From contig NZ_CP133091.1 in the NCBI RefSeq assembly GCF_030908385.1, positions 186,001 to 250,000 of the forward strand: a stretch of DNA of 64,000 nucleotides, read 5' to 3'. The translations under genes were made by a program, and so were the position numbers. A model generated the notes under the pieces. That model was not told the DNA's origin. It saw nothing but the letters and a program-made list of their open reading frames with translations, and made no database searches. This DNA comes from Mangrovimonas sp. YM274 (lineage in GTDB: Bacteria; Bacteroidota; Bacteroidia; Flavobacteriales; Flavobacteriaceae). Numbering within the stretch: position 1 is the stretch's first letter; every line of letters begins with the position of its first letter. This document shows positions 14,524 to 45,083 of this stretch, in pieces.

Positions 14524-16404
14524 TTATCGCCCCATATACACCAAAAGCACAGAAACGTCACTTGGAGAAACCCCACTTATTCGTGACGCCTGGGAAATGG
14601 TAACAGGTCTAATTTTATTTAATTTTTCTCTAGCCTCAAAGCTCATATTTGTAATTCTTGAATAATCGAAATTCTCAGGAATTTTAATATTCTCCAACCT
14701 ATTCAACTTATCCGCATTATTCTTTTCCTTCTCGATATATCCTGAATACTTCACTTGTATTTCGGCTTGCTCAATAACCTCAGGATCCAAATCATGTTCT
14801 TGAACATACGCTTCAACAACATCCAGTTTACGCATGTCGTCAATCGTGATATTTGGTCTAGAAAACACCTTAAACATCTTATCAGATTGTTTAACCAAAG
14901 CCGAATCTTTGCTCTCCAATATCGGATTTATATCTTCAGGCTTTACACTGGTCTCTTTAAAGAACGTCACAAAATCCTCAGCTGCCGAATGCTTTTCCTC
15001 CATACGTTTTAAACGCTTTTCAGAAGCCAAACCTAATTCATACGACTTAGGCGTTAATCTTAAATCAGCATTATCTTGACGTAACAAAGTACGGTATTCC
15101 GCTCTTGAGGTAAACATTCTATAAGGCTCTTCCGTTCCCTTCGTTATCAAATCATCAATTAAAACACCAATATAAGCCTCACTTCTATTTAAAATAAAAG
15201 CTTCCCGTTCTTGAACTTTAAGCGCCGCATTAATACCAGCCATCAAACCTTGCGAAGCTGCTTCCTCATACCCCGTAGTTCCATTAATCTGCCCAGCAAA
15301 ATACAAACCATCAATCAACTTAGTTTCCAACGTATGCTTTAACTGGGTAGGTGGAAAATAATCATATTCGATAGCGTAACCAGGCCTAAAGAATTTTACA
15401 TTTTCAAAACCAGCCACAGAACGCAAAGCCTTAAACTGAACATCTTCTGGCAAGGAGGTAGAAAAACCATTTACATACACTTCTACCGTATTCCACCCTT
15501 CTGGCTCAACAAATAATTGATGCCTATCCTTATCCGCAAATCGATTGATCTTATCCTCTATAGAGGGACAATATCTTGGTCCAGTACTTTTAATTCTCCC
15601 ATTAAACATTGGCGACCTATCAAACCCTTCACGTAACAAATCATGTACTTCCGGACTGGTATAAGACATATGACAATCGCGTTGCTTTATTAATGGTTTT
15701 GTAACATCAGAATACGAGAATTTCTCTGGATTTTCATCTCCAGGCTGTACAATCATTTTAGAATAATCCAACGAACGACCATCAACCCTAGGAGGAGTTC
15801 CCGTCTTCATTCTTCCCGCATCAAAACCTAAATCAACCAACTGTTCGGTAATTCCCTTAGCAGCTCTTTCACCAGCTCTACCACCGCCAAAATTCTTATC
15901 TCCTATATGAATTAATCCATTCAAAAAAGTACCATTTGTCAATACCACAGTCTTTGCCTTAACTTCAATTCCCAAAGAAGTTTTCACTCCAACCACACGC
16001 TCACCTTCCACCAACAAACCAGATACCATATCCTGATAAAAATCCAAATTAGGTGTTTGTTCCAACATCATTCGCCAATCCTCGGCAAACCTCATCCTAT
16101 CACTTTGCACCCGGGGACTCCACATAGCAGGACCTTTGGATTTATTCAACATCTTGAACTGGATCGCAGAAGTATCACTCACAATACCACTATAACCACC
16201 TAAGGCATCAATCTCCCGCACAATTTGCCCCTTAGCAATTCCACCCATAGCTGGATTGCAAGACATCTGTGCAATGTTCTGAAGGTTCATGGTTATCAAT
16301 AAAGTTGAACATCCCATATTAGCCGCTGCTGCCGCAGCTTCACTACCGGCATGCCCAGCCCCAACTACAATTACATCATATGTTTCTTGAAATAAACTCA
16401 TCAT
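14524..16404 (-). CDS. mnmG: tRNA uridine-5-carboxymethylaminomethyl modification enzyme MnmG (GidA)
   Basis: 626 residues, normal length. FAD-binding Rossmann motif VVGAGHAGSEAA near 13-24, CNPAMGGIAKGQIVREIDALGG near 49-70 (first Cys of the conserved segment present) and the long helical C-terminal domain (ISGVSPSDVSVLLVYM near the end). With MnmE it installs cmnm5 on the wobble uridine of several tRNAs in the cytoplasm; MnmE is not in the window. ATG codons occur at residues 1 and 2. The first directly abuts a parS-like site, so ParB binding could overlap its initiation region. mnmG/gidA lies near oriC in many bacteria, which fits the proposed origin 16 kb away. Confidence 0.97.
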   Translation of the reverse strand: MMSLFQETYDVIVVGAGHAGSEAAAAAANMGCSTLLITMNLQNIAQMSCNPAMGGIAKGQIVREIDALGGYSGIVSDTSAIQFKMLNKSKGPAMWSPRVQSDRMRFAEDWRMMLEQTPNLDFYQDMVSGLLVEGERVVGVKTSLGIEVKAKTVVLTNGTFLNGLIHIGDKNFGGGRAGERAAKGITEQLVDLGFDAGRMKTGTPPRVDGRSLDYSKMIVQPGDENPEKFSYSDVTKPLIKQRDCHMSYTSPEVHDLLREGFDRSPMFNGRIKSTGPRYCPSIEDKINRFADKDRHQLFVEPEGWNTVEVYVNGFSTSLPEDVQFKALRSVAGFENVKFFRPGYAIEYDYFPPTQLKHTLETKLIDGLYFAGQINGTTGYEEAASQGLMAGINAALKVQEREAFILNRSEAYIGVLIDDLITKGTEEPYRMFTSRAEYRTLLRQDNADLRLTPKSYELGLASEKRLKRMEEKHSAAEDFVTFFKETSVKPEDINPILESKDSALVKQSDKMFKVFSRPNITIDDMRKLDVVEAYVQEHDLDPEVIEQAEIQVKYSGYIEKEKNNADKLNRLENIKIPENFDYSRITNMSFEAREKLNKIRPVTISQASRISGVSPSDVSVLLVYMGR

Positions 16405-29784: not shown

Positions 29785-31977
29785 TTATTCCTCAGGTTTT
29801 CCCACTAAATTAAAATCTAAATGTTTTTTCACCAAATCGGTATCCTTTACCGTAACCACCACTTCATCTCCCAATTGGTACATATGTTTGGTTTCACGGC
29901 CAATAATGGCAAATTGAGTTTCGTCAAATTCGTAATAATCATCACGAATGTCACGAATTCTTACCATTCCTTCACATTTGTTGGAAATGATTTCTACATA
30001 AATTCCCCAATCGGTTACTCCAGAAATTACGCCCACAAACTGCTCATCCTTATGATCCTGCATAAATCTTATTTGCATATACTTAATGGAATCACGTTCA
30101 GCTTTAGTAGCTAAATATTCCATATCGCTGGAATGCTTGCACTTATCTTCATAAATCTCTTCATTGGCCGATTTTTCGCCATCCAAATACATCTGTAACA
30201 ACCGGTGTGCCATCACATCTGGATATCGTCTAATTGGCGATGTAAAGTGACTATAATAATCAAAAGCCAATCCATAATGCCCAATATTGTGTGTAGTATA
30301 CTCGGCCTTACTCATACTTCTAATGGTAAGTGTATCTACCAAATTCTGTTCTTTTTTCCCGTTTACTTCAGCTAATAAATTGTTAAGCGAATTGGAAATA
30401 CTTTTACGATCCTTGAAATTCAATTTATATCCAAATTTTGATACAACGCCTTGAAGCGCTGATAATTTGCTCTCGTCAGGTTCGTCATGAACGCGATACA
30501 CAAATGTCTTTGGTGGTTTTTGTTTACCTACAAACTCGGCTACTTTTTTATTAGCCAAAAGCATGAATTCCTCAATGAGTTTATTGGCATCTTGACTGGT
30601 TTTAAAAAACACTCCAATTGGGTTGTTATCTTCATCCAAATTGAATTTCACCTCTACCTTATCAAACGAAATTGCTCCTGAACGCATACGTTTACTACGC
30701 ATTTTTTTGGCCAAGATATCCATGGTTAATATAGCATCAGCTATGGCCTGATCTGCTTTATAAGCCTTTTCAGTTAGAGACACCTCTTTAGGAATATCAT
30801 TGGTTTTAGATTCAATAATAGCCTGTGCCTCTTCATAGGCAAATCTGGCATCACTGTAAGTCACTGTTCTCCCAAACCACTGGTCTTTTACTTCTGCTTT
30901 GTCATTTATTTGAAATACAGCCGAAAAAGTATATTTCTCTTCATGCGGTCGTAAAGAACAAGCCTTATTGGACAGTATTTCAGGAAGCATTGGTACTACG
31001 CGATCTACCAAATACACCGAAGTGGCCCGTTCGTAAGCCTCATCATCCAACACAGTGTTTGGACGGACATAATGCGATACATCGGCAATATGGATTCCAA
31101 TCTCATATAAGCCGTTTTCAAGCACTTTAAAGGACAAAGCATCATCGAAGTCCTTAGCATCCTTAGGATCGATTGTAAAGGTCAATACGTCGCGCATATC
31201 GCGTCTTTTAGCTATTTCCTCTTTGGTTATGGAAGTGTCCAAATTGTTAGCATATTGCTCCACTTCATATGGAAATTCATAAGGTAAACCGTATTCGGCT
31301 AATATTGAATGGATTTCGGTATTATGTTCCCCTGGTTTCCCTAAAACCTTTAAAATTTTTCCATAAGGGGAATCGGCCTTTTCAGGCCAATCTTCCAAAG
31401 ATACCAACACTTTGTCACCATCTTCGGCATTGTTTGTTTTATTGATAGGCACAAAAATATCCTTGTACATTTTACCACTGTCAGGTATAACAAAAGCATA
31501 GTTACTATGCAATTGTACCACGCCAACATACTCGGTTTTAGCACGTTTCAATATTTGGGTTACTTCTCCTTCTTGACGCCCTCGATAACGTCTTTTGTAC
31601 ACGTAAAACTCAACTTCATCACCATCTAAGGCTTTGTTCATGTTATTGGAAGCTATAAATACGTCATCCTCAAAGTGATCCGAAATAATATATCCAGATC
31701 CCCTGGCACTCATATCTACAATTCCGGTATAATAATCGGTAGTCACGATGGCCTTAAACTTGCCCCGTTCTACTTCTTCTATTTCCTGTTTGGCTTTAAG
31801 TTGCTGAAGTTTCTTTATGATCTGATTCCTACTACTGGCATCGTTTACACCAAGCTTGGCAGCAATCTGCTTATAGTTAAAGGTTTTGTTACGTTCCTTT
31901 TTTAAAATACTTAAGATTGTATTTGTAAGGTTGGAAATTTGGTTGTTCGATTTCCTTCTTTTTTTCTTTCTAGCCAT
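29785..31977 (-). CDS. rnr: Ribonuclease R
   Basis: 730 residues. A basic N-terminus (ARKKKRRKS) and a helix-turn-helix part are followed by two cold-shock OB regions (about 80-230), the RNB catalytic core from about 255 (FTIDPKDAKDFDDAL, with the metal-binding acidic residues, then IADVSHYV) and an S1 domain near the C-terminus (QFVGVISGVTDWGIYVEI). It is a 3'-5' exoribonuclease that degrades structured RNA. It leads a minus-strand pair with the YbjQ-like gene. Its -7 element sits at the edge of the putative oriC. Confidence 0.95.
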   Translation of the reverse strand: MARKKKRRKSNNQISNLTNTILSILKKERNKTFNYKQIAAKLGVNDASSRNQIIKKLQQLKAKQEIEEVERGKFKAIVTTDYYTGIVDMSARGSGYIISDHFEDDVFIASNNMNKALDGDEVEFYVYKRRYRGRQEGEVTQILKRAKTEYVGVVQLHSNYAFVIPDSGKMYKDIFVPINKTNNAEDGDKVLVSLEDWPEKADSPYGKILKVLGKPGEHNTEIHSILAEYGLPYEFPYEVEQYANNLDTSITKEEIAKRRDMRDVLTFTIDPKDAKDFDDALSFKVLENGLYEIGIHIADVSHYVRPNTVLDDEAYERATSVYLVDRVVPMLPEILSNKACSLRPHEEKYTFSAVFQINDKAEVKDQWFGRTVTYSDARFAYEEAQAIIESKTNDIPKEVSLTEKAYKADQAIADAILTMDILAKKMRSKRMRSGAISFDKVEVKFNLDEDNNPIGVFFKTSQDANKLIEEFMLLANKKVAEFVGKQKPPKTFVYRVHDEPDESKLSALQGVVSKFGYKLNFKDRKSISNSLNNLLAEVNGKKEQNLVDTLTIRSMSKAEYTTHNIGHYGLAFDYYSHFTSPIRRYPDVMAHRLLQMYLDGEKSANEEIYEDKCKHSSDMEYLATKAERDSIKYMQIRFMQDHKDEQFVGVISGVTDWGIYVEIISNKCEGMVRIRDIRDDYYEFDETQFAIIGRETKHMYQLGDEVVVTVKDTDLVKKHLDFNLVGKPEE

Positions 31978-31997
31978 TCTCTTTTTTCTAATAGTAA

Positions 31998-32005
31998 CAA
32001 ATCTA
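31998..32005 (-). promoter_or_regulatory. -7 promoter element for rnr
   Basis: Read on the minus strand TAGATTTG matches TAnnTTTG, 20 bp before the rnr ATG, and sits at the left edge of the putative origin. Confidence 0.5.
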
Positions 32006-32109
32006 AGCTTTAATATACTAAATCATATTTCTTTTAGGCTAAGATTTTAAAGGAATCACTAAACAGACTTCAAATATATCTTTTCAAACAGATTTTGTTA
32101 ATCCAATCG

Positions 32110-32118
32110 TTATTCACA
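32110..32118 (+). promoter_or_regulatory. DnaA-box-like TTATTCACA
   Basis: TTATTCACA fits the bacterial DnaA-box pattern TTATnCACA exactly and lies inside the putative oriC. Confidence 0.65.
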
Positions 32119-32182
32119 ATTAATACTATAATTACTTTTCTTTTTTGAAATTTTAAAAAAATGATTGTTGTTTATGATAGGG

Positions 32183-32191
32183 TGTTAATAA
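32183..32191 (-). promoter_or_regulatory. Degenerate DnaA-box-like TTATTAACA
   Basis: Reverse-strand TTATTAACA, one mismatch to TTATnCACA. The same 9-mer occurs at 32251-32259 and 32503-32511, which argues against pure chance even in AT-rich DNA. Confidence 0.4.
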
Positions 32192-32250
32192 GTGGAATAA
32201 CTTTTTTGATTTTTTTTTTGAAAACTCACAGTTTACGGTCTATTAAAATG

Positions 32251-32259
32251 TTATTAACA
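32251..32259 (+). promoter_or_regulatory. Degenerate DnaA-box-like TTATTAACA
   Basis: TTATTAACA, forward, within the putative oriC; identical to 32503-32511. Confidence 0.4.
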
Positions 32260-32502
32260 ACCTGTTTTTATTTAAATACTTCATTTTGAGTAAAATTATG
32301 GTAGTTATTAAAACCTGTTTAAAACGAATGTTAATAGTTTTGATTTAACAACTTTTAGAAATTTTGGTGTTTATAATGAAAAAAAGGATGCTGAAAACTC
32401 CGCCAAAAAAAGTGAAGTTATATTTTGGTTATGTCATTCCGGTTTCTGTATTGGAAATTATTTTGAGTTTTAAAAAATAATCTTTTAGAATTTAATTAAC
32501 AG

Positions 32503-32511
32503 TTATTAACA
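32503..32511 (+). promoter_or_regulatory. Degenerate DnaA-box-like TTATTAACA
   Basis: TTATTAACA, forward; flanked by the same AC dinucleotide as the copy at 32251. Confidence 0.4.
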
Positions 32512-32556
32512 ACTTATAAAAAGAAAAGTGAAAAGTAATTAACCATCACTTTAAAA

Positions 32557-32565
32557 TGTGCATAA
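32557..32565 (-). promoter_or_regulatory. DnaA-box-like TTATGCACA
   Basis: Reverse-strand TTATGCACA, an exact fit to TTATnCACA, about 70 bp before the rpiB start. Confidence 0.65.
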
Positions 32566-32590
32566 CTATAGGCTGTAAAAGGACATTTTG

Positions 32591-32598
32591 TACCTTTG
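32591..32598 (+). promoter_or_regulatory. -7 promoter element for rpiB
   Basis: TACCTTTG matches TAnnTTTG, 27 bp before the rpiB ATG. Confidence 0.5.
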
Positions 32599-32625
32599 TA
32601 CCTTTAAATCAATTTAATACATATA

Positions 32626-33060
32626 ATGAACATTTCAATCGGTAACGATCACGCAGGAACAGAGTATAAATATGCTATTGTTAAACATTTGGAAGCAAAG
32701 GGATATACTGTTAAAAACTATGGAACAGATAGTAGTGACAGTGTAGATTACCCAGATTTTGTACATCCTGTGGCTAATGATGTGGAAAGTAAAGCTGCAA
32801 ATTTTGGAATTATTATTTGCGGTAGCGGAAATGGTGCCAATATGACTGCCAACAAACATCAAGGTGTCCGTTCTGCTTTATGTTGGACTAAGGAAATTGT
32901 AACCTTGGCCAGAGAGCATAACGATGCCAATATATTGAGTATTCCAGCGCGTTTTACGGCGCTTCCACAAGCCATTGAAATGGTGGATGCGTTTTTGGAA
33001 ACGCAATTTGAAGGTGGACGTCATCAAAACCGGGTTAACAAGATCCCAGTGTCTTGCTAA
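32626..33060 (+). CDS. rpiB: Ribose 5-phosphate isomerase B
   Basis: 144 residues, usual length. GNDHAGTEYK (7-16), catalytic Cys65 in ICGSGNGANMTANK, and HQGVRSALCW are all present. It interconverts ribose 5-phosphate and ribulose 5-phosphate in the pentose phosphate pathway. The stop directly precedes the start of the CDF transporter gene (0 bp gap), and that gene overlaps the GNAT gene by one base, so three genes form one operon directed away from the putative origin. Confidence 0.95.
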   Translation: MNISIGNDHAGTEYKYAIVKHLEAKGYTVKNYGTDSSDSVDYPDFVHPVANDVESKAANFGIIICGSGNGANMTANKHQGVRSALCWTKEIVTLAREHNDANILSIPARFTALPQAIEMVDAFLETQFEGGRHQNRVNKIPVSC

Positions 33061-33972
33061 ATGGGACATTCTCATTCACATACTCACCTACACGCTAGTA
33101 CAAAAGATAGAAATCTTGTGGTTTCTATCTTTTTGAATATACTTATAACAGTAGCACAGGTCATTGGAGGGCTTATCTCTGGTAGTCTCTCGCTTTTGAG
33201 TGATGCGCTTCATAACTTTAGTGACGTATTATCATTAATTGTAAGTTATGTGGCCTCCAAACTTTCTAGGCAAAAGGCCTCCATAAACAGAACCTTTGGC
33301 TTTAAACGTGCCGAAATATTAGCAGCTTTTGTCAATGCCATCACCTTGGTTGTCGTGGCTATTTTGTTGATTATTGAGGCGGTTAAGCGTTTTAAAACTC
33401 CAGAGGAAATTCAATCCAATTTGGTAATATGGCTTTCCTTAATTGCTATTGTAGCTAACGGTTTTAGTGTGCTTTTGTTGAAAAGTGATTCTGAAAAGAA
33501 TATCAATATCCGTTCGGCCTATTTACACCTGTTAACAGATATGTTGGCAAGTGTTGCTGTGTTGGTGGGGGGCTTGTTAATGAAATACTACCAATTGTAT
33601 TGGGTGGATAGTGTCCTAACCTTTTTAATTGCGCTTTATCTTATTTGGGTGGGGTATGATTTGCTAAAAACGTCTACCAAAATGTTGATGTTGTTCACAC
33701 CAGATCACATTAACATAAAGGATGTGGTAAGAGCTGTGAACAAATTGCCAAAAGTGAGTAAACTTCACCATGTCCATATTTGGAATTTGAGTGACCATGA
33801 GCTGCATTTGGAAGCACATTTAGATTTAAATGAAGATATTTCTACAACCGAGTTCAATGAACTTTTACATGAGATAGAAAAATTGTTGCACCATAAGTTT
33901 GAAATTAACCATGTTACCATACAGCCCGAATTCAATAAAATAGATCCTAAAGAAGTTATCGTTCAAGATTAA
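33061..33972 (+). CDS. Cation diffusion facilitator (CDF) family metal exporter
   Basis: 303 residues. A His-rich N-terminus (HSHSHTHLH at 3-11), six membrane segments (about 20-40, 42-62, 88-108, 118-136, 155-175, 180-200), D48/H51/D55 in LSDALHNFSDV and a second site HLLTDMLAS, then a cytoplasmic domain ending near 290. Such proteins export Zn2+ (or Co2+/Cd2+) by proton antiport; Zn is the most likely substrate from the DxxxH/HxxxD pattern. Middle gene of the rpiB operon. Confidence 0.93.
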   Translation: MGHSHSHTHLHASTKDRNLVVSIFLNILITVAQVIGGLISGSLSLLSDALHNFSDVLSLIVSYVASKLSRQKASINRTFGFKRAEILAAFVNAITLVVVAILLIIEAVKRFKTPEEIQSNLVIWLSLIAIVANGFSVLLLKSDSEKNINIRSAYLHLLTDMLASVAVLVGGLLMKYYQLYWVDSVLTFLIALYLIWVGYDLLKTSTKMLMLFTPDHINIKDVVRAVNKLPKVSKLHHVHIWNLSDHELHLEAHLDLNEDISTTEFNELLHEIEKLLHHKFEINHVTIQPEFNKIDPKEVIVQD

Positions 33973-34429: not shown

Positions 34430-35269
34430 TTAATTACTGTTTTCTCCTCCTACGTAAGTCACCAAAATTTCAACACGCCTATCAAATTTAGGCTCGCCAC
34501 CCAGAGGAAACAAACGACGCATACCAACATATTTCATACGTTTTTTATCAACCCCTTTTTTGGCCAAATAGTCGTAGATGTACTTGGCTCTAGCTACAGA
34601 TAGATTGCGTTTTTTGGTTTTTCTATCAATGGCATCCCTACTGTTTTGTGTACAGCATACATGGCCCTGAATGGTAAAGTAAATATCGTCACGCTCCACT
34701 AATACTTCCGCAAGTTCTTCCAAAGTCTTCACGGACTCCGGAAGTAGATAGCTATAACCCGTTTTAAACAAAATATTTTCAAGAGTAAATTTATCACCTG
34801 CTTTAAGATCACCTCTTAGCTGGTCTTTTACTTCCATTTTCACAGGTTCTTCAACTACTCTGGGCGGATTGTAAGGATGTACAATAATTTCAACTTTACG
34901 GTTTAGTCCCCTAATTTTATGGACATCTTCTTCTTTAATAACTTTTAATAACACCTCCCCTTTACCATCAACATTGGTGATAATGGATTCATCAAATTCA
35001 TTGTTAGAGAAAATAGTCTTGATGGAATTGGCTCTTTGTTGGGAGAGTTTCAAATTATAGGTATCACTTCCACGGTCGTCAGTAAACCCATAAATGGACA
35101 CTTTTTCAATGTCTAAACCTTCAATTTCCGATAGAAATAAAAGTAATCTATTGTGCTCTGTTGAAGGAACTTCAAACTTGTCAGTTTCAAAATAAACCTC
35201 GTGTGTTAGATCTTCTTGTGCACATAGAAATTGTGTAATTAAAACAAAAAATGCTATTAATTTTTTCAT
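34430..35269 (-). CDS. OmpA-family protein with two peptidoglycan-binding-like domains
   Basis: 279 residues with a signal peptide (about 1-17, ending CAQ). Two OmpA-like regions can be read. The first spans about 22-130 and contains VSIYGFTDDRGSDTYNLKLSQQRANSIK, with the TDxxGs and N..LSxxRA pattern. The second spans about 155-275 and contains FTIQGHVCC, NLSVARAKYIYDYL and MKYVGMRR. Both are of the MotB/OmpA C-terminal type that binds diaminopimelate; tandem copies are less usual than one. It probably tethers the envelope in the periplasm. Single gene. Confidence 0.85.
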   Translation of the reverse strand: MKKLIAFFVLITQFLCAQEDLTHEVYFETDKFEVPSTEHNRLLLFLSEIEGLDIEKVSIYGFTDDRGSDTYNLKLSQQRANSIKTIFSNNEFDESIITNVDGKGEVLLKVIKEEDVHKIRGLNRKVEIIVHPYNPPRVVEEPVKMEVKDQLRGDLKAGDKFTLENILFKTGYSYLLPESVKTLEELAEVLVERDDIYFTIQGHVCCTQNSRDAIDRKTKKRNLSVARAKYIYDYLAKKGVDKKRMKYVGMRRLFPLGGEPKFDRRVEILVTYVGGENSN

Positions 35270-35339
35270 TATTATTACAATAAGGGGAAATAAATATACT
35301 TTATTTTTCTACTTTTTAAAAATGTACCTAAGAAATTTT

Positions 35340-36974
35340 TTACTTTAAGTAACCTTGGTACGTGGATAAATTTCCTAATATTTCCGTAGCTTTTTGAATT
35401 TCAGTGTTAGTAGCAATGTAATACGTATACAATCCTTCTCTGTAAAAATAACGTTTAACAATTTCATCGGACAAGAGAGATTTCAACTGTGTTTTATTAC
35501 TATCTACAGCTTGGTCTTTATAAGAATTTAAAGCCTTTACAAGCGCGTCATATTCGGGGTTTATAACAGGTTTTAACTGCTCTTCCTTGGCAACTGTAAT
35601 AGCTTCATCAAAAGCTTTTTCTGTTTTGGTTTCAAAGTTAAAATTGTTGGTTTTTAGGAAGCTTTTGAAATCCTTAAAGTCGGTATCTGAAAATTTAAAA
35701 GCATTTAAATCTGCTACTTGATGGGTGTAATAATATTTAGTGGCGTAATCAAAAATAAGGTTGTCGTTTAGGATTGCTGTGGTAATGGGGCTGTAAACAG
35801 ATTCTACCATCTCTACATCTGGTTGTATACCTCCACCATCGTAAACGGTTCTTCCTTTTTTGGTTTTAAATGCATTGTAATTTTCTTGTTTTACCCTAGT
35901 AGCTTTGCCATCTTCATCTCTGTTCCAATAGTCTAAAGCCTGAATACAACGTCCAGAAGGCGTATAATATCTAGAGATGGTAATTTTCATGTGGGTTCCG
36001 TAAACCAATGGTTTTGGACGTTGTACCAAACCTTTTCCAAAGCTTCGAGCTCCTACCACTACGGCACGATCCAAATCCTGTAAAGCTCCCGATACAATTT
36101 CACTGGCGGAAGCACTACGGCCATCAATTAAAACTACCAAGGGGATTTCTGTATCCAAAGGTTCTTTAGAGGTGTAATAAGTTTTGTTGTATTTCTTTAC
36201 TTTAGATTTTGTAGTAACGACCAATTGGTTTTGTGGTACAAAAATATTTACCACATTTACGGCTTCACTCAATAAGCCTCCTGGATTGCCCCTTAGGTCT
36301 AAAATCAATTTTTTGGCACCTTCCTTTTTAAGACTTCTAATGGCATTAATAGTTTCAGAAGATGCTTTTTCATTGAATTTTCGCAACACTACATAACCGG
36401 TTTGGTTATTCACCATAGAATAATGAGGTACGGCATGAATCTCTACAGCTTCGCGTTTAATAGTGGCCGAATGAGTTTTTCCTTGACGTAAATAAGTCAC
36501 ATTTACATTGGTACCAGCGGCCCCTTGTAACAAGTTTCCTGCATCGTCCTTGAAATCGGCAACCACAACATTTTCAACTTTAATGATTTCATCACCGGCT
36601 TTTAGGCCAGCTTTATCGGCGGGATAATCTTTATAAGGCTCAATGACTACCAATTTATCTTTAAGTGTCAAAATACTGGCGCCTATGCCTGTATAGTCCC
36701 CTGTATTGTTAATTCTAGAGGCTTCCACATCCTGTTCGTTCATGAAATTGGTATAGGGATCCAAATCTTCCAGCATACTTTTAATGGCCGTGTCCATTAA
36801 TTCACCAGGATTGGTCTCGTCAACATAATTCATGTTGAGTTCTTTGAAAAGAGTGGTGAAGATTTCTATCTGTTTGGCAATTTCAAAAAAATCACTCTTA
36901 AAAGCAGTTCCCGTTAAAAAAATAGAGACAATAAGAACAGGAACAAGGATATGTTTACGGAATCGATGTTTCAT
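35340..36974 (-). CDS. S41 family C-terminal processing peptidase
   Basis: 544 residues: signal/anchor segment (about 8-24), PDZ domain (about 90-170) and an S41 catalytic core with S289 in DGRSASASEIVSG and K314 in SFGKGLVQ, the Ser-Lys dyad spaced 25 residues apart as in Tsp and CtpA. An additional helical tail of about 150 residues follows. It degrades or trims periplasmic proteins from the C-terminus. It is the last gene of the pncB-pncA-rnpA cluster and starts 11 bp beyond the rnpA stop. Confidence 0.93.
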   Translation of the reverse strand: MKHRFRKHILVPVLIVSIFLTGTAFKSDFFEIAKQIEIFTTLFKELNMNYVDETNPGELMDTAIKSMLEDLDPYTNFMNEQDVEASRINNTGDYTGIGASILTLKDKLVVIEPYKDYPADKAGLKAGDEIIKVENVVVADFKDDAGNLLQGAAGTNVNVTYLRQGKTHSATIKREAVEIHAVPHYSMVNNQTGYVVLRKFNEKASSETINAIRSLKKEGAKKLILDLRGNPGGLLSEAVNVVNIFVPQNQLVVTTKSKVKKYNKTYYTSKEPLDTEIPLVVLIDGRSASASEIVSGALQDLDRAVVVGARSFGKGLVQRPKPLVYGTHMKITISRYYTPSGRCIQALDYWNRDEDGKATRVKQENYNAFKTKKGRTVYDGGGIQPDVEMVESVYSPITTAILNDNLIFDYATKYYYTHQVADLNAFKFSDTDFKDFKSFLKTNNFNFETKTEKAFDEAITVAKEEQLKPVINPEYDALVKALNSYKDQAVDSNKTQLKSLLSDEIVKRYFYREGLYTYYIATNTEIQKATEILGNLSTYQGYLK

Positions 36975-36985
36975 AGCAGTAACGT

Positions 36986-37363
36986 TTAATCTAGCGTAAT
37001 TGTTTGGGTAAATTTGGTTAGCAGTTGCTTCATTTTTTTATCAACTTGCTCAAAAGATGTACCATCTTTACCAATGTACAAAATCATTAACGCATAAGGC
37101 TCACTTATGTTGTTAAAAAAAGTTGGTTTGTTCAATCTATAGGCCTCTCGCATAAGTCGTTTTATACGGTTACGATCGGTGGCATTTTTGAATCGTCGCT
37201 TGCTTACGGACACCCCAGCCTTGATTAAAGTGCCATCGGCATGGGGAGTTGGCAAATAAATCATTTTTAATGGGTAGGCCGATACCGATTTGCCTTCTTC
37301 AAACAAATGGGAAATGACAATCTTGCTTTTAAGTTTTTCTGAAGCGTTAAACGTATATTTCAT
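36986..37363 (-). CDS. rnpA: Ribonuclease P protein component
   Basis: 125 residues, basic. The RNA-binding motif region KRRFKNATDRNRIKRLMRE (55-73) carries the RNR signature, preceded by AGVSVSK. It assists RNase P RNA in cutting tRNA 5' leaders. Its stop is one base from the pncA stop/start junction (start 37363, pncA stop at 37365) and the S41 peptidase follows after 11 bp. In many bacteria rnpA sits beside rpmH and near oriC; here it lies about 5 kb from the putative origin, without rpmH. Confidence 0.94.
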   Translation of the reverse strand: MKYTFNASEKLKSKIVISHLFEEGKSVSAYPLKMIYLPTPHADGTLIKAGVSVSKRRFKNATDRNRIKRLMREAYRLNKPTFFNNISEPYALMILYIGKDGTSFEQVDKKMKQLLTKFTQTITLD

Positions 37364-37364
37364 A

Positions 37365-37970
37365 CTAAAGATTTGAGGTCTCTACAAGATGAACTTTATG
37401 CGCCTTTAAATCGGTTAATGCAGCCTCATAGCTGGTCTGATCTATATAGCGCATAGCATCTGTAAGGTAGTAGGTATTAAAACCGGCTAATTTAGCATCT
37501 TTTGCGGTATAATACACACAATAATCGGCTGCCAATCCACACACATAGACTTCGTTTATTCCCTTCCCTTTTAAATAGGGCTCTAAGCCTGTAGCATTAC
37601 TATGGTTGTTATCATAAAAAGCACTGTAACTATCAACTTCTATATCCATACCTTTCCTAAAAATAGCAGACACTTTATTCATGTGAAGTGCCTCCGAAAA
37701 TTGGGCGCCTTCACTGCCCTGTACACAATGGTCAGGCCATAATACCTGCGAATTTCCATTTAAGTCAATCACATCAAGTACCTGTGCTTTGTCATGATTG
37801 GAAGCAAAGCTTTTATGGGTTTGTGGATGCCAATCCTGTGAGGCTACAACCAAATCAAATTTAGATTGAATGGGATTGATGATAGGAATGATAGCATCGC
37901 CATCGGGAACTGCCAAAGCACCACCAGGTAGAAAATCATTTTGGATGTCAACTAAAATTAGCGCTTTCAT
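37365..37970 (-). CDS. pncA: Nicotinamidase
   Basis: 201 residues. Cysteine hydrolase with the triad D8 (VDIQNDF), K106 (FRKGMD) and C151 (AADYCVYYTA), and the metal ligands D46, H48 (DWHPQTH) and H81. It converts nicotinamide to nicotinate. It follows pncB after 3 bp, which uses the product, so the two genes form an NAD salvage unit. It precedes rnpA by 1 bp. Confidence 0.95.
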   Translation of the reverse strand: MKALILVDIQNDFLPGGALAVPDGDAIIPIINPIQSKFDLVVASQDWHPQTHKSFASNHDKAQVLDVIDLNGNSQVLWPDHCVQGSEGAQFSEALHMNKVSAIFRKGMDIEVDSYSAFYDNNHSNATGLEPYLKGKGINEVYVCGLAADYCVYYTAKDAKLAGFNTYYLTDAMRYIDQTSYEAALTDLKAHKVHLVETSNL

Positions 37971-37973
37971 GCC

Positions 37974-39380
37974 TTAAGGTTTCAGTTTTTCCTTTTTTAA
38001 TTGATTTCTCAAAGCCTCCAACTCGGGACTCAATCCTACTTTATAGATATGTGGATAGGCAAAACGTTTGTGCTCAATAGGGAGTTTCTTTAGATTTTCT
38101 TTTGCAATTTTAGCCAATTCTACAGGTAATTGTTCGGGGTGTAAACGTTTACCATCTTTAAGTACAACCTGAAGTAAGGGAACTGCTTTATAAGGAGATA
38201 GTGCCATTTGTTTATGGGGTTCAAAAGGATGTGCCATGGTATTGGGGGCTTCCAAAGATTCTAAAGTAATAGCATCGGCAATATGCTGATCGTCTTCGTT
38301 GTAATAGCGGTAAACCTGCTTTTCTCCTGGAAAATTCATTTTCTTTAAATTCTCTGAAATCTTGATCCGGGGCGTATTGTTAAAACTGCATAGTTTGTAA
38401 ACTCCGTCCAAGGCAGCACTCTCCTTCCCTACTACCAAATTAGTACCTACACCATACAAATCTATTTGCGCCTGTTGTTCTTTTAAACTTCGTATCACAT
38501 GTTCGTCCAATTGGTTGGAAGCAGCAATTTGCACATAGGGCAATCCAGCATCATCCAACTGTTTTCGGGCGGCTTTTGATAAATAGGCCAAATCGCCACT
38601 ATCTAAACGAATTCCTAATAGCTTTTCGCCCCTGGCTTCCATTTCTTTGGCTACGGTAATAGCATTGGGAACCCCTTGTTTTAAGGTATTATAGGTATCT
38701 ACCAGAAGTACGCAGTTGTGTGGTCTGGTTTCGGCAAAATCACGGAAGGCCGTAAGCTCATCGTCATAGCTTTGAATAAAGGCGTGGGCCATGGTTCCTG
38801 AAATAGGAATGTTGTAAGCTTTTCCCGCCAGTACATTGGAGGTATGATCGAACCCTCCAATAAAGGCTGCTCTACTGGCCTGCATTCCCGCTAAGCCTTG
38901 GGCACGCCGCAAACCAAATTCGGCCAAACTTTTGGAATCACCTGCAATATGCCTTATTCTACTGGCTTTGGTAGCAATTAAGGATTGAAAGTTCAAGGTA
39001 TTGAGCAGATAGGTCTCTATAAGTTGACACTCCAAAATAGTACCGCTCACCGTTAAAATGGGAATGAACGGAAACACAATGGTACCCTCGGGCATGCTCT
39101 TGATAGTGCCTTTAAATTTGAATGTTTTTAAGTATTCTAAAAAGCCCTTATCAAATCCTTCCGAAGTCAAATACGCAATATCCTCTTCAGAAAAGGTAAA
39201 GGTTTCTAAATGTGTTAAGACTTCTTCCAAACCACAAAACAATACATAGCCGCCTTCAAAAGGCGTCTTTCTAAAGAAATAATCAAAGGTGGCAGTCACC
39301 TCGTGTTTCTGTTTTAAGAAGTAGGATTGCCCCATGGCCAGTTGGTACAAATCGGTATATAGAGCAGATTGCAAGTTCAT
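37974..39380 (-). CDS. pncB: Nicotinate phosphoribosyltransferase
   Basis: 468 residues. Conserved segments include YFFRKTPFEGGYVLFCGLEE (33-52), FGLRRAQG, GTMAHAFIQSYDDE and GIRLDSGDLAYLSK. It forms nicotinate mononucleotide from nicotinate and PRPP with ATP hydrolysis (Preiss-Handler route of NAD synthesis). It is the first gene of the pncB-pncA-rnpA-S41 cluster, with ATG at 39378-39380. Confidence 0.95.
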   Translation of the reverse strand: MNLQSALYTDLYQLAMGQSYFLKQKHEVTATFDYFFRKTPFEGGYVLFCGLEEVLTHLETFTFSEEDIAYLTSEGFDKGFLEYLKTFKFKGTIKSMPEGTIVFPFIPILTVSGTILECQLIETYLLNTLNFQSLIATKASRIRHIAGDSKSLAEFGLRRAQGLAGMQASRAAFIGGFDHTSNVLAGKAYNIPISGTMAHAFIQSYDDELTAFRDFAETRPHNCVLLVDTYNTLKQGVPNAITVAKEMEARGEKLLGIRLDSGDLAYLSKAARKQLDDAGLPYVQIAASNQLDEHVIRSLKEQQAQIDLYGVGTNLVVGKESAALDGVYKLCSFNNTPRIKISENLKKMNFPGEKQVYRYYNEDDQHIADAITLESLEAPNTMAHPFEPHKQMALSPYKAVPLLQVVLKDGKRLHPEQLPVELAKIAKENLKKLPIEHKRFAYPHIYKVGLSPELEALRNQLKKEKLKP

Positions 39381-39507
39381 GCTATTTAAGTTTCTTATAA
39401 AAATACGGAAGGTTTTCTAAAAATCCTTCCTGTGAGTTTTAAATTAGTTGAATAACAATAAATTATATTAGATATTCTCCTTAATCCCAAGCCTCATAAA
39501 GCTCTTG

Positions 39508-41106
39508 TTATTTTATTTTTGATGCCATTAAAAGAGCATTGTAGGCGTTTACAATTTTACCTGATTTGGACAATTTTTGAAAGGCTTTAATATGCGTTGG
39601 ATCATCCCCTACCTGTACTTCGGTGGGGAGGGATACCCCCGATTTCATTATGATATTTTTAACCTCTGAAGCACTTAAATGAGGGTATTGTGAACGTATT
39701 ATTGCTGCTACTCCAGTTACAGCGGGAGCGGCCATAGAGGTCCCATTTTCACTTTTGTAAGTGTTGTTTGGGTAGGTAGAATAGATATCGCTACCTGGAG
39801 CAAAGACATCTACATTGTGTTGTCCATAGTTAGAATAATCGGCGACGACTTTGGTACCATACGTTGGGGTTAGGGCACCTACAACCAAAAAATTATCCGA
39901 AATCTCTTTACCGTTTACCATATCATTGGGATAAGAAGGTGTGTCGTCCAAATTATAGGCATCATTACCTGCGCTAATTACCAAAAGAACATCATGCTGG
40001 GCAGCATATCGAATGGCATCGCTTACCCATTCGCTGTGTGTAGCATAGTATTTACCAAAACTTCCGTTGATAATCTTGGCACCATTATCCACAGCGTAAC
40101 GAATGGCCAATGCTACATCTTTATCGTATTCATCGCCATTGGGTGTACTGCGAATAGCCATAAGTTTTACATTATTGGCTACCCCATCCACTCCAATATG
40201 GTTATTGCGTTGCGCAGCTATGATCCCTGCCACATGAGTGCCGTGGGTTTCTTCCGGATCGTGTGGTTTTACATTGTTGTCGCCATAACCTACATCCGAA
40301 AGGTCATCGGGGTTATCGCCGGTAGTTCTTCCATGGAAGTCCTTGTTTAAATGGTAGTTCAAGTGGTCATTGATGAGTATCATATCTTTTTCTACGGCCT
40401 CCTTGAATTCAGAAATAGAGTCATAATCGGCAGTGTAAATTTTCATAAATTCAATAGCATTTAACACTGACGGATTGTTGGTACTGATAGTATCAATATC
40501 TGCTTTGGAATAGGTACTTTTCTTTAAATGGGTAGACAGAATATAATCTACCATTACTACTTGAGCAGTAACTCTATCGTAAATATTTTTATACTCACTG
40601 TATTTTTTAAATTCCTTTTGGTATTGCTGCTCGGCTTCGGTATACTGCGGATGGCTAGTATCTCCTTTGGCCAAAATACGGGTATATTCAAATTGCTCGT
40701 TGTAGGCATCACCTAAAAAGTTCCAACCGTGGATATCATCTACATAGCCATTGTTATCGTCATCTATTCCATTGTTGGGTATTTCATTGGGATTGGTCCA
40801 AATGACAGCACTTAAATCCTCATGGTCAATATCCATACCCGAATCTATAACAGCCACTAGAGTTGTGTTCCCTTGTTTTGTTTTAAGAATCTCCCCATAA
40901 GCTCTGTCCACACTCATTCCAGGTATGGTGTCCGTCAAGAGGTCTAAATGAGCCCAATGGTGTTCTTGCTTTTTTGTTAATGGAGTTGTTTTATAGTGGG
41001 GTTGGGTAATTTTTTCCATGGAAATACCGCTTACCCGAGCGCTCCCACATCCAACCAAAAAAGGGCCAATAAGGGCTGTTGCCAAAACAAATTTTAAGGA
41101 TTTCAT
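39508..41106 (-). CDS. S8 family (subtilisin-like) serine protease, lipoprotein
   Basis: 532 residues. A lipobox signal, GPFLVGC, with Cys20. The catalytic triad is complete: D88 (VAVIDSGMD), H288 (ETHGTHVAGII), S457 (NGTSMAAP), with oxyanion Asn381 (SAGN). Between D and H lies an insertion of roughly 160 residues; it starts with an acidic Asn/Asp loop (NGIDDDNNGYVDD), which resembles calcium-binding repeats, and continues as a long helical, Lys/Glu/Tyr-rich segment. No C-terminal T9SS sorting domain. Probably anchored to the outer membrane. It starts 3 bp after the MBL hydrolase stop on the same strand. Confidence 0.93.
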   Translation of the reverse strand: MKSLKFVLATALIGPFLVGCGSARVSGISMEKITQPHYKTTPLTKKQEHHWAHLDLLTDTIPGMSVDRAYGEILKTKQGNTTLVAVIDSGMDIDHEDLSAVIWTNPNEIPNNGIDDDNNGYVDDIHGWNFLGDAYNEQFEYTRILAKGDTSHPQYTEAEQQYQKEFKKYSEYKNIYDRVTAQVVMVDYILSTHLKKSTYSKADIDTISTNNPSVLNAIEFMKIYTADYDSISEFKEAVEKDMILINDHLNYHLNKDFHGRTTGDNPDDLSDVGYGDNNVKPHDPEETHGTHVAGIIAAQRNNHIGVDGVANNVKLMAIRSTPNGDEYDKDVALAIRYAVDNGAKIINGSFGKYYATHSEWVSDAIRYAAQHDVLLVISAGNDAYNLDDTPSYPNDMVNGKEISDNFLVVGALTPTYGTKVVADYSNYGQHNVDVFAPGSDIYSTYPNNTYKSENGTSMAAPAVTGVAAIIRSQYPHLSASEVKNIIMKSGVSLPTEVQVGDDPTHIKAFQKLSKSGKIVNAYNALLMASKIK

Positions 41107-41109
41107 AGG

Positions 41110-41967
41110 CTAAAAGATATCGTTGCAATGTATGACATCCTTTAAGCGAACGCCTTTTTCGGTGTGTTGAACAGTAATAATTTCATTGTGGGCATCATGT
41201 TCCAAAAACAAATAATAATTATTATCGGCTGCCATGTTCAAGAACTGTTCCTTTTCATCAAGGGTCAACAATGGTCTGGTGTCGTAACCCATTACAAATG
41301 GTAATGGAAGATGGCCTACGGTAGGTAATAAATCGGCCATAAAACAAATGGTATTCCCTTTGTACTGGATCATCGGGATCATTTGTTTATCCGTGTGCCC
41401 ATCGGCAAAAAAGATATCGAAACCTAAGGGAGAATCTTTTAAAATAGAGTCTTTTGGAAGCCCTGTAAATTTTAATTGTCCGCTTTCTTCCATTGGAAGG
41501 ATGTTCTCTTTCAAAAAGGATGCCTGTTCCCTCCTATTGGGTTTGGTAGCCCATTGCCAATGATCGGCATTGCTCCAAAATGTTGCGTTTTTAAAAGCCG
41601 GCTCATACCCTGTTCTATCGGCATTCCATTGAATACTTCCTCCACAGTGGTCAAAGTGCAAATGGGTCATAAACACATCGGTAATATCATCTCTATGGAA
41701 GCCATATTTAGCTAAAGATTTGTCTATAGTATCATCACCCCACATGTAGTAGTAGCCAAAAAACTTATCACTTTGCTTGTCGCCCATTCCCGTGTCAATC
41801 AATATAAGCCTATTGCCATCTTCAATCAACATACAGCGTGCTGCAATGTCTATCATGTTGTTGGCATCGGCAGGATTGGTACGTTGCCATAGAGATTTAG
41901 GGACTACGCCAAACATGGCGCCCCCGTCAAGCTTAAAATTTCCTGATTCTATAGGGTAGAGTTTCAT
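41110..41967 (-). CDS. MBL-fold metallo-hydrolase
   Basis: 285 residues. The zinc motif THLHFDHCGG (101-110) with H102, H104, D106 and H107, later DGHTDKQ (near 208) and EHDAHNE (near 260). No signal peptide, so cytoplasmic. Family members are lactonases, arylsulfatases or other hydrolases; the substrate is not apparent. Transcribed with the S8 protease, which follows after 3 bp. Confidence 0.88.
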   Translation of the reverse strand: MKLYPIESGNFKLDGGAMFGVVPKSLWQRTNPADANNMIDIAARCMLIEDGNRLILIDTGMGDKQSDKFFGYYYMWGDDTIDKSLAKYGFHRDDITDVFMTHLHFDHCGGSIQWNADRTGYEPAFKNATFWSNADHWQWATKPNRREQASFLKENILPMEESGQLKFTGLPKDSILKDSPLGFDIFFADGHTDKQMIPMIQYKGNTICFMADLLPTVGHLPLPFVMGYDTRPLLTLDEKEQFLNMAADNNYYLFLEHDAHNEIITVQHTEKGVRLKDVIHCNDIF

Positions 41968-42048
41968 ATCAAAATATTTTTATGCAAATTATGAAAAGCC
42001 GAAGGATTATTGGGTATTGTTTAGAGAATATTAAGAATGCCCAAAAGA

Positions 42049-44238
42049 CTAGTCAATCGTATTTTGAAGGCGTTTGCCAAAGTCCAACAATGCCTTTAGC
42101 TCCTTGATACTTGCCAAGCGTTCCTTACTGAAAATAAGCAAACTTGTACCATTAGACTCAATGTGATAATAGGGATTGCTTTCAAAAAAGAGCACCAATT
42201 CATCATTAAAGAACGACGTAATGCCTTCTACATCTTCACCCAACAAATAAAAGCGTTTTGAAAAGTCGTCATGATCTTGAATGGGGATGTCCTTAAAACC
42301 TGCAAGGGCATATACCTTTTCCAAAAAGCCTTCGCGATCCAAGGTAAATACAGGCACTTCGTTTTCAAGATCAATGTGTAACATGGTGGTACGCACTACT
42401 TCCTTGGCAATAAATTCACCTTCTGAGAACTCTATATCAAAGAGATTGATGGCGTGGATATCGTTAAAAAGACGGTTGTAAATATGGTTAATCTGTTTGG
42501 TTTTAAAGAATAAAAAGTCCTTAAGGAATAAAGTGTCCTTACACTTGGTGGGGTTGTAACCCAATGAAAAATCCTCGGCAATGGTTTGGAGCTGCGATTG
42601 GCGTTTGGTTAAATGGCGGCCAAACAATCGCGTACCGGAAAGGTTTCTTCGTAAAGCTAAAGGATGTTCAGAATCGGCTTTGTAGGTGTCTAGACCAACA
42701 ATTTCAAAATGCCCGTCATTTTTAGTAAACATATCTTGGTAACCGTTGAGGTTTTCCATGACCGTATGGTCTACAAAATTGCAGAGGGAAAAGTCCACAA
42801 CAACATCGTATTGAGGTGGAATAGCGTCTAGTTTTTCCTTCAGCTTATAGTAGTTTAAAAAACTGCAGAAATGTTTCACACTTACATAATAATTGCCATT
42901 ATCCTCTTTGTACATTAGTACGTTTGGTTTCATTAGGTTTCTCACAAAAAGCATGAAACTTTTGTTAATGACAATGTGAATAATCAAAGTGGTGATTACT
43001 CCCGAAATAATCCCAGTAATTAAGCCAATTTTAAGGGTCACAAACAAGGTTACAAAGAAAATGATCAGCTGTTCTTTTCCTATAAAAACAATATTTCTGA
43101 TCACGGTTGGAGAGGCCAACTTATACCCTGTAAATACCAAAATAGCCATAAGGGCCGGTAATGGCACACGGGTAAGTTGGGTACTGAACAAAACGATAAA
43201 AATCACCAAAAAGAAGGCATGAAAGAAGTTGGATGAGGTATTGCTGCCGCCATTGTTGACGTTTACTGAACTTCTGGCAATTACCGTAACAACATTAAGG
43301 CCTCCCAAAAAACCACTGCCTATACTGGCAACCCCTAGTGCTTTTAAATCTTTATTGACGTTGGAACGTCTGTTTTCGGGATCCAATTTATCCACAGCTT
43401 TAATACTCAATAAAGATTCAATGCTCGCAATTAATGTTAGGGCCAAAACACTGGACCAAAAAGGGATACTTCCCATTTGGCTAAAATCTACTGTTGGTAT
43501 TTGGGTAATGATTTCGTTAAAATGAGGAATGCCCGAAACCATATAGCTTTTACTGATTGGGTTGTCTTCATGCAGCACCAATTCAAAATAGTAACTGAAG
43601 CCAATGGAGAGCAAAACAATCCACATTGGGGCGGGAATCAATTGCAGGTATTTGTTGCGCAGTTTGGGGTAAATAACCATAATAACTAAACTCACTACAC
43701 CAATAATGGCGGCAAAAATCAAACCTTTCCTTTCATAATGAAGGGCGTCATTGATGGTTACCGGAATTTCTATCAGGTAATCCATGGCATCGGTTCGTTG
43801 TATTTTGTGAGCCAGCATAATGTGGAATTGCTTGCCTAAAATAATAAGTCCAATGGCAGCCAACATCCCCTGAATGGCAGAGGAAGGAAAAAAGTCCGAC
43901 AGTTTGCCTAATTTAAAAAAGCCAAGAGCAATCATCACCAAACCAGAACAGATTACGGCCGCATAGGCACCATTAAGTCCTAAAGCCGTAATGGCCACCA
44001 GTGTAACGCCCACCATACCGTTACCAGGCCCAGTAATGGTAACATGACTGCCTCCAAGGATAGATACCACAAGACCACTTACTATGGCAGTAATTACGCC
44101 TGCTATGGGCGGTGCTTCACTGGCCATGGCCAGTCCCAATCCCAAAGGAAGCGAAATAAGGCTAACCACAAATCCTGAAAAAATGTTCCGTGGGAGTTGG
44201 CTAAAAAAGGTTTTTATGTTGTTTTTCCTTGGGCTCAC
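42049..44238 (-). CDS. SulP family anion transporter with STAS domain
   Basis: 729 residues. About ten to twelve membrane segments between 15 and 430, with FSGFVVSLISLPLGLGLAMASEAPPIAGV (21-49) and GGSHVTITGPGNGM near 61-74 in the characteristic substrate-binding region. A STAS-type domain (about 450-560, VVVDFSLCNFVDHTVMENL) and a C-terminal cytoplasmic part of about 170 residues follow. SulP carriers move sulfate, bicarbonate or other anions. The start is GTG (44236-44238) and overlaps the stop of the universal stress protein gene by 4 bp (GTGA), so the two are translationally coupled; no ATG exists before residue 38. Confidence 0.9.
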   Translation of the reverse strand: MSPRKNNIKTFFSQLPRNIFSGFVVSLISLPLGLGLAMASEAPPIAGVITAIVSGLVVSILGGSHVTITGPGNGMVGVTLVAITALGLNGAYAAVICSGLVMIALGFFKLGKLSDFFPSSAIQGMLAAIGLIILGKQFHIMLAHKIQRTDAMDYLIEIPVTINDALHYERKGLIFAAIIGVVSLVIMVIYPKLRNKYLQLIPAPMWIVLLSIGFSYYFELVLHEDNPISKSYMVSGIPHFNEIITQIPTVDFSQMGSIPFWSSVLALTLIASIESLLSIKAVDKLDPENRRSNVNKDLKALGVASIGSGFLGGLNVVTVIARSSVNVNNGGSNTSSNFFHAFFLVIFIVLFSTQLTRVPLPALMAILVFTGYKLASPTVIRNIVFIGKEQLIIFFVTLFVTLKIGLITGIISGVITTLIIHIVINKSFMLFVRNLMKPNVLMYKEDNGNYYVSVKHFCSFLNYYKLKEKLDAIPPQYDVVVDFSLCNFVDHTVMENLNGYQDMFTKNDGHFEIVGLDTYKADSEHPLALRRNLSGTRLFGRHLTKRQSQLQTIAEDFSLGYNPTKCKDTLFLKDFLFFKTKQINHIYNRLFNDIHAINLFDIEFSEGEFIAKEVVRTTMLHIDLENEVPVFTLDREGFLEKVYALAGFKDIPIQDHDDFSKRFYLLGEDVEGITSFFNDELVLFFESNPYYHIESNGTSLLIFSKERLASIKELKALLDFGKRLQNTID

Positions 44239-45083
44239 TGGACAATCAATACATCGGTTGGTAATTCGGTTAAAATGTATTCAATGTCGTGCGGAAATAG
44301 GCGGTCCCAAAACGACATTTTTAAAGGAGCATTCATTACCAATAAATCAGCACGGACCACTTCGGCATAATGTCCAATGGAATAGCCGCGTTTTCCAAAG
44401 ATTGGTTGTGTTTTTACAAACACCGAATCTTGGTATTCCTGAGGAATTTCAGCAATTAATTTTTTCACCCTAGAGTCTTCCCTTAGTGCCAAACGTTCCT
44501 TAACAATATTGGCTTTTCTAAGGGATCTATGGTCTTCAACACTTACCGCTACCTGTTGTTTGGTAATTTCTTCTACGACCGTAATCTTGTTGGAACCTAA
44601 TTTGTTGGCCACAAAAAAGGCTGCCGAAATGGCTTCTTGGGTTCTAGGGTCTTTCAATCCGTTGACTACAATATGTTGACATGGCACACGCTGTACTGAG
44701 GGCTTTGTGAGCAATAAAATGGAACACTTGGCTTTACGGGTGATTTTTCTGGCAATGGAACCCACATAGTACTTTAAAAGGTTTTCACGTTTTAATGCAC
44801 CAATAATCAAAAGATCAATATTATAGGTCTTTGTTGCGGATAATATCACTTCCACAGGATCTCCACTTTTAAAAACCATTTGGTAAGAGAGTTGCTGTGC
44901 TATAAAGGGCTGCAGGACTTCTTCAATTTCTTTTTCTTTTTTTTCTGAAGCTTCCCCAACATGTATCAAGAGCAATTTGCAGTCAAAAAACAAAGCAAGG
45001 CGAGACGCTTCATAAATATTGGAAACGAGGTTAGGAGAAAAGGCAACGCCAATGCCAATGGTATGAAAAGGCTTTAAAGTCAA
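44235..45083 (-). CDS. Tandem universal stress protein (UspA)
   Basis: 282 residues with two Usp domains (about 5-145 and 155-282). The first contains GIGVAFSPNLVSNIYEA and LLIIGALKRENLLKYYVGSIARKIT; the second ends with DLLVMNAPLKMSFWDRLFPHDIEYILTELPTDVLIV. The start is TTG (45081-45083); no ATG or GTG lies upstream in frame. It overlaps the SulP gene by 4 bp. The function is probably a nucleotide-sensing partner of that transporter, as Usp domains commonly accompany SulP carriers (inference). Confidence 0.88.
   Translation of the reverse strand: MTLKPFHTIGIGVAFSPNLVSNIYEASRLALFFDCKLLLIHVGEASEKKEKEIEEVLQPFIAQQLSYQMVFKSGDPVEVILSATKTYNIDLLIIGALKRENLLKYYVGSIARKITRKAKCSILLLTKPSVQRVPCQHIVVNGLKDPRTQEAISAAFFVANKLGSNKITVVEEITKQQVAVSVEDHRSLRKANIVKERLALREDSRVKKLIAEIPQEYQDSVFVKTQPIFGKRGYSIGHYAEVVRADLLVMNAPLKMSFWDRLFPHDIEYILTELPTDVLIVQ

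Follow-up and report, generated by a model that had tools for sequence, protein, structure and literature searches.

The gap between rnr and rpiB

We analyzed a 64,000-nucleotide stretch of the Mangrovimonas sp. YM274 chromosome, hereafter the window, which corresponds to positions 186001-250000 of a single 3,823,913-bp contig. At 31978-32625 of the window (chromosomal coordinates 217978-218625) lies a 648-bp intergenic gap flanked by divergent genes. On its left is rnr, encoding ribonuclease R (RNase R), on the minus strand at 29785-31977 (NCBIfam TIGR02063, 731 bits, over the cut-off), and on its right is rpiB, encoding ribose-5-phosphate isomerase B, on the plus strand at 32626-33060 (NCBIfam TIGR01120, also over the cut-off). 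A first-pass annotation made from the sequence alone had described an AT-rich gap between these two genes with two TTATnCACA matches, another sequence in three copies and long T/A runs, and each of these features was found on reanalysis. The gap is 77.2% AT, and a T-tract and an A-tract are present at 32119-32182. Searches of 31500-33100 for Rfam families returned none up to an E value of 1, and 32090-32625 had no match in plasmid and phage collections at an E value of 1e-5.

Pattern searches placed the two TTATNCACA matches at 32110-32118 on the plus strand (TTATTCACA) and at 32557-32565 on the minus strand (TTATGCACA). The three-copy sequence is TTATTAACA, which was located at 32183-32191 on the minus strand and at 32251-32259 and 32503-32511 on the plus strand, the last copy within the aligned block AgtTATTAACAAg. 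Two further variants had been missed in the first-pass annotation: CTATTAACA at 32329-32337 on the minus strand, a DnaA-type box variant that fits TATTAACA, and a weak box-like site, TTATAAACA, at 32368-32376 on the minus strand within the aligned block TGTTtATa.

In dinucleotide shuffles of the gap, at least three TTATTAACA sites occurred in 1 of 20,000 and at least two TTATNCACA sites in 16 of 20,000, and no shuffle among 20,000 reached both counts jointly. Across the whole window there were six TTATTAACA sites against 2.17 expected and six TTATNCACA sites against 3.77 expected. Neither 9-mer is strongly over-represented at this scale; the clustering is the unusual part. Genome-wide, TTATTAACA occurs 81 times, below the 130 occurrences of a reversed control pattern, and the rnr-rpiB gap is the only place in the 3.82-Mb chromosome with three TTATTAACA sites inside 648 bp. 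When 81 sites were placed uniformly, such a three-site cluster arose in 157 of 20,000 trials. We also considered TTATNCACA alone as a genome-wide marker and rejected it, as its 151 sites compare with 173 for the reversed control.

By one published rule, a bacterial DnaA-dependent oriC has at least three DnaA boxes with a mean spacing below 100 bp. The gap contains six TTATNCACA/YTATTAACA sites in 456 bp with start distances of 73, 68, 78, 174 and 54 bp (mean, 89 bp), a count that includes TTATTAACA despite its one mismatch to TTATNCACA; strict TTATNCACA gives two sites. Elsewhere in the window, no 700-bp stretch held more than two boxes of these types.

Conservation of the locus and an 81-bp core element

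To compare this locus among relatives, we used 80 titled rnr loci from one scan (best match, Mangrovimonas xylaniphaga at 95%) and 30 rpiB loci from a search of the family Flavobacteriaceae, one of which came from this genome itself; rpiB was found in 147 of the 149 family genomes searched. Nineteen of the 110 loci examined were without one of the two genes, and rnr and rpiB were divergent in 90 of the remaining 91. Outside the family, rnr was beside rpiB in only 1 of 30 rpiB loci (each at most 3.4 kb), where the two genes were co-oriented.

For box counts, we retained only those of the 90 divergent gaps that were 500-760 bp long, removed the duplicate from our own genome (L104) and added the window, for a total of 43 gaps. 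These contained 121 TATTAACA sites compared with 8.9 in shuffles, 32 TTATNCACA sites compared with 2.1 and 38 CTATTAACA sites compared with 0.8, and TTATCCACA was present in 18 of the 43. The density of TATTAACA was 4.4 per kb in rnr-rpiB gaps, 0.06 per kb in 400 kb of this genome and 0.04 per kb at both dnaA loci and mnmG loci, making it about 100 times rarer at the latter two.

The boxes at 32110 and 32183 face each other with starts 73 bp apart around an AT-rich stretch, and 52 of the 90 gaps contain a forward box and a reverse box separated by 66-80 bp, compared with a mean of 0.05 in shuffles, for which gaps longer than 3000 bases were represented by their first 3000. The commonest spacings were 72 and 73 bp. 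Between the paired boxes, most cores carried TATATA, a T-tract, AAAATTTAAAAA and a ATGATGGTTATTATAG-like sequence that directly abuts the second box. Exact TTATTATAG followed two bases on by TGTTAATA was present in 22 of 40 cores, and the window core has TTGTTTATGATAGGG at this position. In the window, the stretch between the boxes (32119-32182, plus strand) consists of the T-tract, the A-tract and TTGTTGTTTATGATAGGG. We propose it as a candidate unwinding element from its family consensus, TTATtATaG beside the box, and its low computed stability. Positions 32119-32178 are one of the eight separate 60-bp stretches with the lowest stability in the window. Low stability is not unique to the core, as other window stretches, including 32468-32527 inside the gap, are less stable.

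We then trained a profile of this core (32110-32191) on 20 loci and ran it with nhmmer on 362 sequences (4.64 Mb) in target sets that overlap in genomes. It matched the window at 32110-32190 with 44.4 bits, 59 of the 80 titled rnr loci, 26 of the 30 rpiB loci (one from our own genome) and 23 of 56 rpiB flanks, which equals 23 of 28 single-contig relatives. The 195 control stretches gave no match; they comprised 40 stretches at a distance of 150 kb, 28 mnmG loci, 74 loci from dnaA searches (29 and 45), 30 non-family rpiB loci and 23 other loci of our own genome. A reversed decoy of the profile likewise produced no match. Ninety of the 109 matches were outside the training set, and the window core still scored 32.2 bits with two near-identical relatives left out of training. 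Eight of the 109 matches were weak (E value above 0.001), one of them being L081, 6.8 kb from rnr. No core was detected in 21 of the 80 rnr loci, several of which end close to rnr, in 15 of the 91 two-gene loci or in 5 of the 28 single-contig relatives.

The promoters of both genes must sit in the gap, and repeated sites in both orientations would also suit a regulator, so that the conserved repeats could be operator sites of a transcription factor controlling rnr or rpiB rather than DnaA boxes. The position of the core argues against such a role. Among 22 core-bearing loci with gaps longer than 1 kb, the core was 441-622 bp from rpiB in 18, where the distance to rnr reached 2.2 kb. In three others (L045, L049 and L052), it was at most 451 bp from rnr with rpiB 1.7-8.5 kb off, and in L103 it was intermediate between the two genes. 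The core is thus tied to neither gene's promoter alone. Furthermore, in three loci where rpiB is absent from the site (L065, L085 and L087), the core remains 0.1-0.6 kb upstream of rnr; seven other rnr loci without rpiB had no core match, and L081 had only the weak, distant match noted above. A regulator would also leave the switch in strand composition at the gap, described below, unexplained, and we regard operator sites as a highly improbable explanation.

We also searched for DnaA-trios of the BUS type, in which more than three 3'-[G/A]A[T/A]-5' triplets follow one another next to a GC cluster and a box. Strict TA[AG] runs of three were found in none of 40 cores on the plus strand and in 2 of 40 on the minus strand, and the gap showed no looser run of four triplets. 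The one three-triplet DnaA-trio-like run in the window, TAATAGTAA at 31989-31997, lies a short way upstream of rnr, with 112 bp between it and the closest box.

Strand composition in this chromosome and in relatives

The first-pass annotation had named a chromosome-wide skew minimum at the gap as a check on its origin proposal. We performed this check on samples, 20 stretches of 20 kb that cover 10% of the chromosome. All 10 stretches between 300 kb and 2.02 Mb had a positive GC skew, and the 10 remaining stretches (2.13 Mb through 0 to 120 kb) all had a negative one, which places the sign changes within 120-300 kb and 2.02-2.13 Mb. The two changes are thus about half a chromosome apart, one around the window and the other adjoining the antipode of the gap (2.13 Mb). 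A negative-to-positive switch, paired with a positive-to-negative one at half a chromosome's distance, is the arrangement sought for an oriC, and this part of the check came out in favor of the gap. In contrast, the raw cumulative skew within the window did not, as it falls to 32 kb, stays flat over 32-44 kb and then rises, with its minimum at 42,438. To the right of the gap, this plateau contains an uninterrupted series of nine minus-strand genes (34430-45083), whose pooled coding-strand GC3 skew is -0.16, which is lagging-strand-like; minus-strand genes left of the gap have a coding-strand GC3 skew of +0.27. Because these nine genes flatten the curve for about 10 kb, we set the raw minimum aside.

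A two-class likelihood applied to the coding-strand GC3 skew of 43 open reading frames, hand-picked as genes from 81, corrected for gene strand and returned the switch to the gap. The best boundary was 31977-32626, between rnr and rpiB, and the following gene boundary, at 33060, scored equally well, so that the switch is placed within 31977-33061. Every other boundary was at least 3.7 log units worse, with those at 33.97-35.3 kb only 3.7-5.8 worse, those at 28.5-29.4 kb 5.2-7.4 worse and that at 45.1 kb 76.4 worse.

This switch can be resolved to no better than about 1 kb, and boundaries as far as 35.3 kb fit only slightly less well, which would leave room for a true origin at another site within a few kb, with the gap itself containing a DnaA-titrating or regulatory cluster of a datA- or DARS-like kind. 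However, the confinement of more than two such boxes per 700 bp to this gap within the window, the low-stability core between the boxes and the strict positional conservation across relatives all weigh against a titrating cluster, which we consider very unlikely.

An origin beside mnmG (14524-16404 of the window, 16 kb away), with the rnr-rpiB gap merely nearby, merits consideration on published grounds. Ori-Finder 2022 predictions for two related genera (Mariniflexile litorale and Algorimicrobium) put oriC at mnmG and are stated by their authors, in the portions available, to agree with GC skew; in the available portion of PMC11278836, the legend of Figure 3 is at odds with the text. Moreover, mnmG is at most 60 kb from rpiB in 26 of 28 single-contig relatives, and such closeness means that a chromosome-wide skew plot cannot separate the two sites. 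The GC3 analysis does separate them, with a boundary at mnmG being 92.6 log units worse than one between rnr and rpiB. In addition, 28 mnmG loci contained only five TATTAACA sites in 136 kb and no core match, and Mariniflexile and Bizionia loci (L037, L054 and L055, from species other than the published ones) have the core between rnr and rpiB. An origin at mnmG therefore has, in our estimation, a very small chance of being correct.

We extended the skew analysis to 20-kb flanks in 28 single-contig relatives, two of them shortened by contig ends. The signal at this scale was noisy. The skew went from negative (left) to positive (right) in 12 of 28 and was lower on the left in 23 of 28, and GC3 skew was lower on the left in 24 of 28, with G132, G055, G099 and G017 running in the opposite direction. 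Over 150 kb on either side, the left was lower in 17 of 20 relatives, with a negative-to-positive change in 13 of 20. The best GC3 switch in relatives was often 5-19 kb off. Skew thus supports the predicted origin neighborhood in most relatives, and the exact site there rests on the conserved sequence. G017 is the sole one of the 28 with rnr and rpiB 37 kb apart; it had no core match, and its flank skew ran in the opposite direction.

The clustered DnaA-type boxes, the strand-composition switch and the family-wide conservation of both the position and the 81-bp core are all evident from the sequences. Together, they support the origin proposed in the first-pass annotation, and we predict with a probability of roughly 0.92 that the rnr-rpiB gap is the chromosomal oriC of this flavobacterium.

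The initiator DnaA

The dnaA gene of this genome is at 2,501,840, 1.54 Mb from the gap, and the predicted origin is thus not dnaA linked. Residues by which DnaA reads its box are R399, P423, D433, H434, T435 and H439 (PMC7561715, available in part), and the helix of residues 434-451 reads TnCACA, with a T435M substitution causing a binding defect (PMC5742627, available in part). By alignment, with E. coli numbering counted by hand, our DnaA keeps R399, D433, H434 and H439 and has P423A and T435A, leaving four of the six E. coli-type base contacts. A435 and the sequence RDHATV were present in all 29 family genomes, and position 423 was Ala in 28 of 29. Four further family genomes contained three with A435 and one with Ser435 (G135, labeled as the same family), bringing A435 to 32 of 33. 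Outside the family, A435 was found in none of 30 phylum loci, which were those extracted from 61 genomes searched, and in two (G187 and G191) of nine genomes that share the class or order but come from different families.

TTATTAACA differs from TTATNCACA at the sixth base, which is within the part read by the helix of residues 434-451. From these substitutions and this base, we infer that DnaA specificity may be relaxed or shifted in the family. Strict co-variation between box and DnaA residue was considered but is not established, given A435 in G187 and G191, Ser435 in G135 and TTATCCACA in the 18 gaps noted above.

Comparison with known origins

In E. coli, the unwinding element has TTATT next to box R1, which is oriented with its ACA end toward that element. 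The locus described here resembles E. coli oriC in that its AT-rich candidate unwinding stretch terminates in a TTATTATAG-like sequence adjoining a box, and the ACA end of this box points to the stretch. It differs in that another box, at a fixed spacing, is directed at the core from the opposite side, many boxes are TTATTAACA and dnaA is distant. For E. coli, binding of the single-stranded unwinding element requires TTGT and TTATT (PMC5742627, in the part available). As in Bacillus subtilis and Clostridioides difficile (PMC7561715, likewise), boxes are beside an AT-rich region, the site of strand opening in those species and its candidate here, but in our locus DnaA-trio runs are almost lacking and dnaA is not adjacent.

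The predicted origins of the Bacteroidetes Prevotella intermedia and Elizabethkingia meningoseptica likewise combine a skew switch and a box cluster with a distant dnaA. These predictions used the E. coli box with at most one mismatch, and the available portions of the reports do not give gene neighbors or a core element. A large distance between oriC and dnaA has already been described as common in Bacteroidetes (PMC4755523, available in part). The identical 9-mer TTATTAACA has been proposed as a DnaA box in Mycoplasma hominis (PMC2751442, available in part), but that species belongs to an unrelated phylum, and its two copies, located upstream of dnaA, are predictions only. As a whole word in the literature, TTATTAACA was found solely as these putative M. 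hominis boxes among the text available. Among the matches listed for oriC in Bacteroidetes or Flavobacteriaceae, titles and the starts of abstracts did not describe an rnr-rpiB origin or the 81-bp core. To that extent, we found no published description of the core, of its box usage or of the change in DnaA. We therefore view the locus as a well-supported predicted oriC with lineage-specific anatomy, and a database entry for such anatomy may already exist.

Proposed mechanism and implications

In the model we favor for the predicted rnr-rpiB origin, DnaA, encoded 1.54 Mb away, would bind both TTATNCACA sites and the lineage's TTATTAACA sites. The facing boxes at 32110 and 32183 would nucleate DnaA oligomers with their ends toward the shared T/A core, which would then melt and allow two helicases to be loaded for bidirectional replication. 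The remaining boxes at 32251-32565 may regulate or assist assembly. A more speculative extension, which we consider possible but doubtful, is that Flavobacteriaceae possess a distinct type of oriC. Its core would be symmetric, with a single unwinding element shared by two DnaA boxes that face it at a fixed 72-73 bp spacing and are read by a DnaA with a changed recognition helix region (P423A and T435A), TTATTAACA thereby being a true box. If so, two DnaA oligomers growing toward each other might load both helicases on one core.

If the predicted origin is correct, one short signature could serve to locate the origin in a large family of marine bacteria, and the DnaA change with the variant boxes would offer a direct test of initiator and origin co-evolution. 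There may also be practical consequences. In all 28 single-contig relatives, rpiB is 0.8-2.0 Mb from dnaA, and in 10 of them (G106, G120, G130, G132, G011, G115, G062, G052, G089 and G100) dnaA is at most 130 bp from position 1. With dnaA close to position 1 and rpiB far away, position 1 in those assemblies is not near the proposed origin, and equating dnaA with the origin would lead to wrong replication maps and wrong coverage-based growth estimates in such genomes. As a separate observation, contig 1 of G130 contains five TTATTAACA sites at an exact 258-bp spacing at 184456-185496, apparently a tandem repeat unrelated to the origin.
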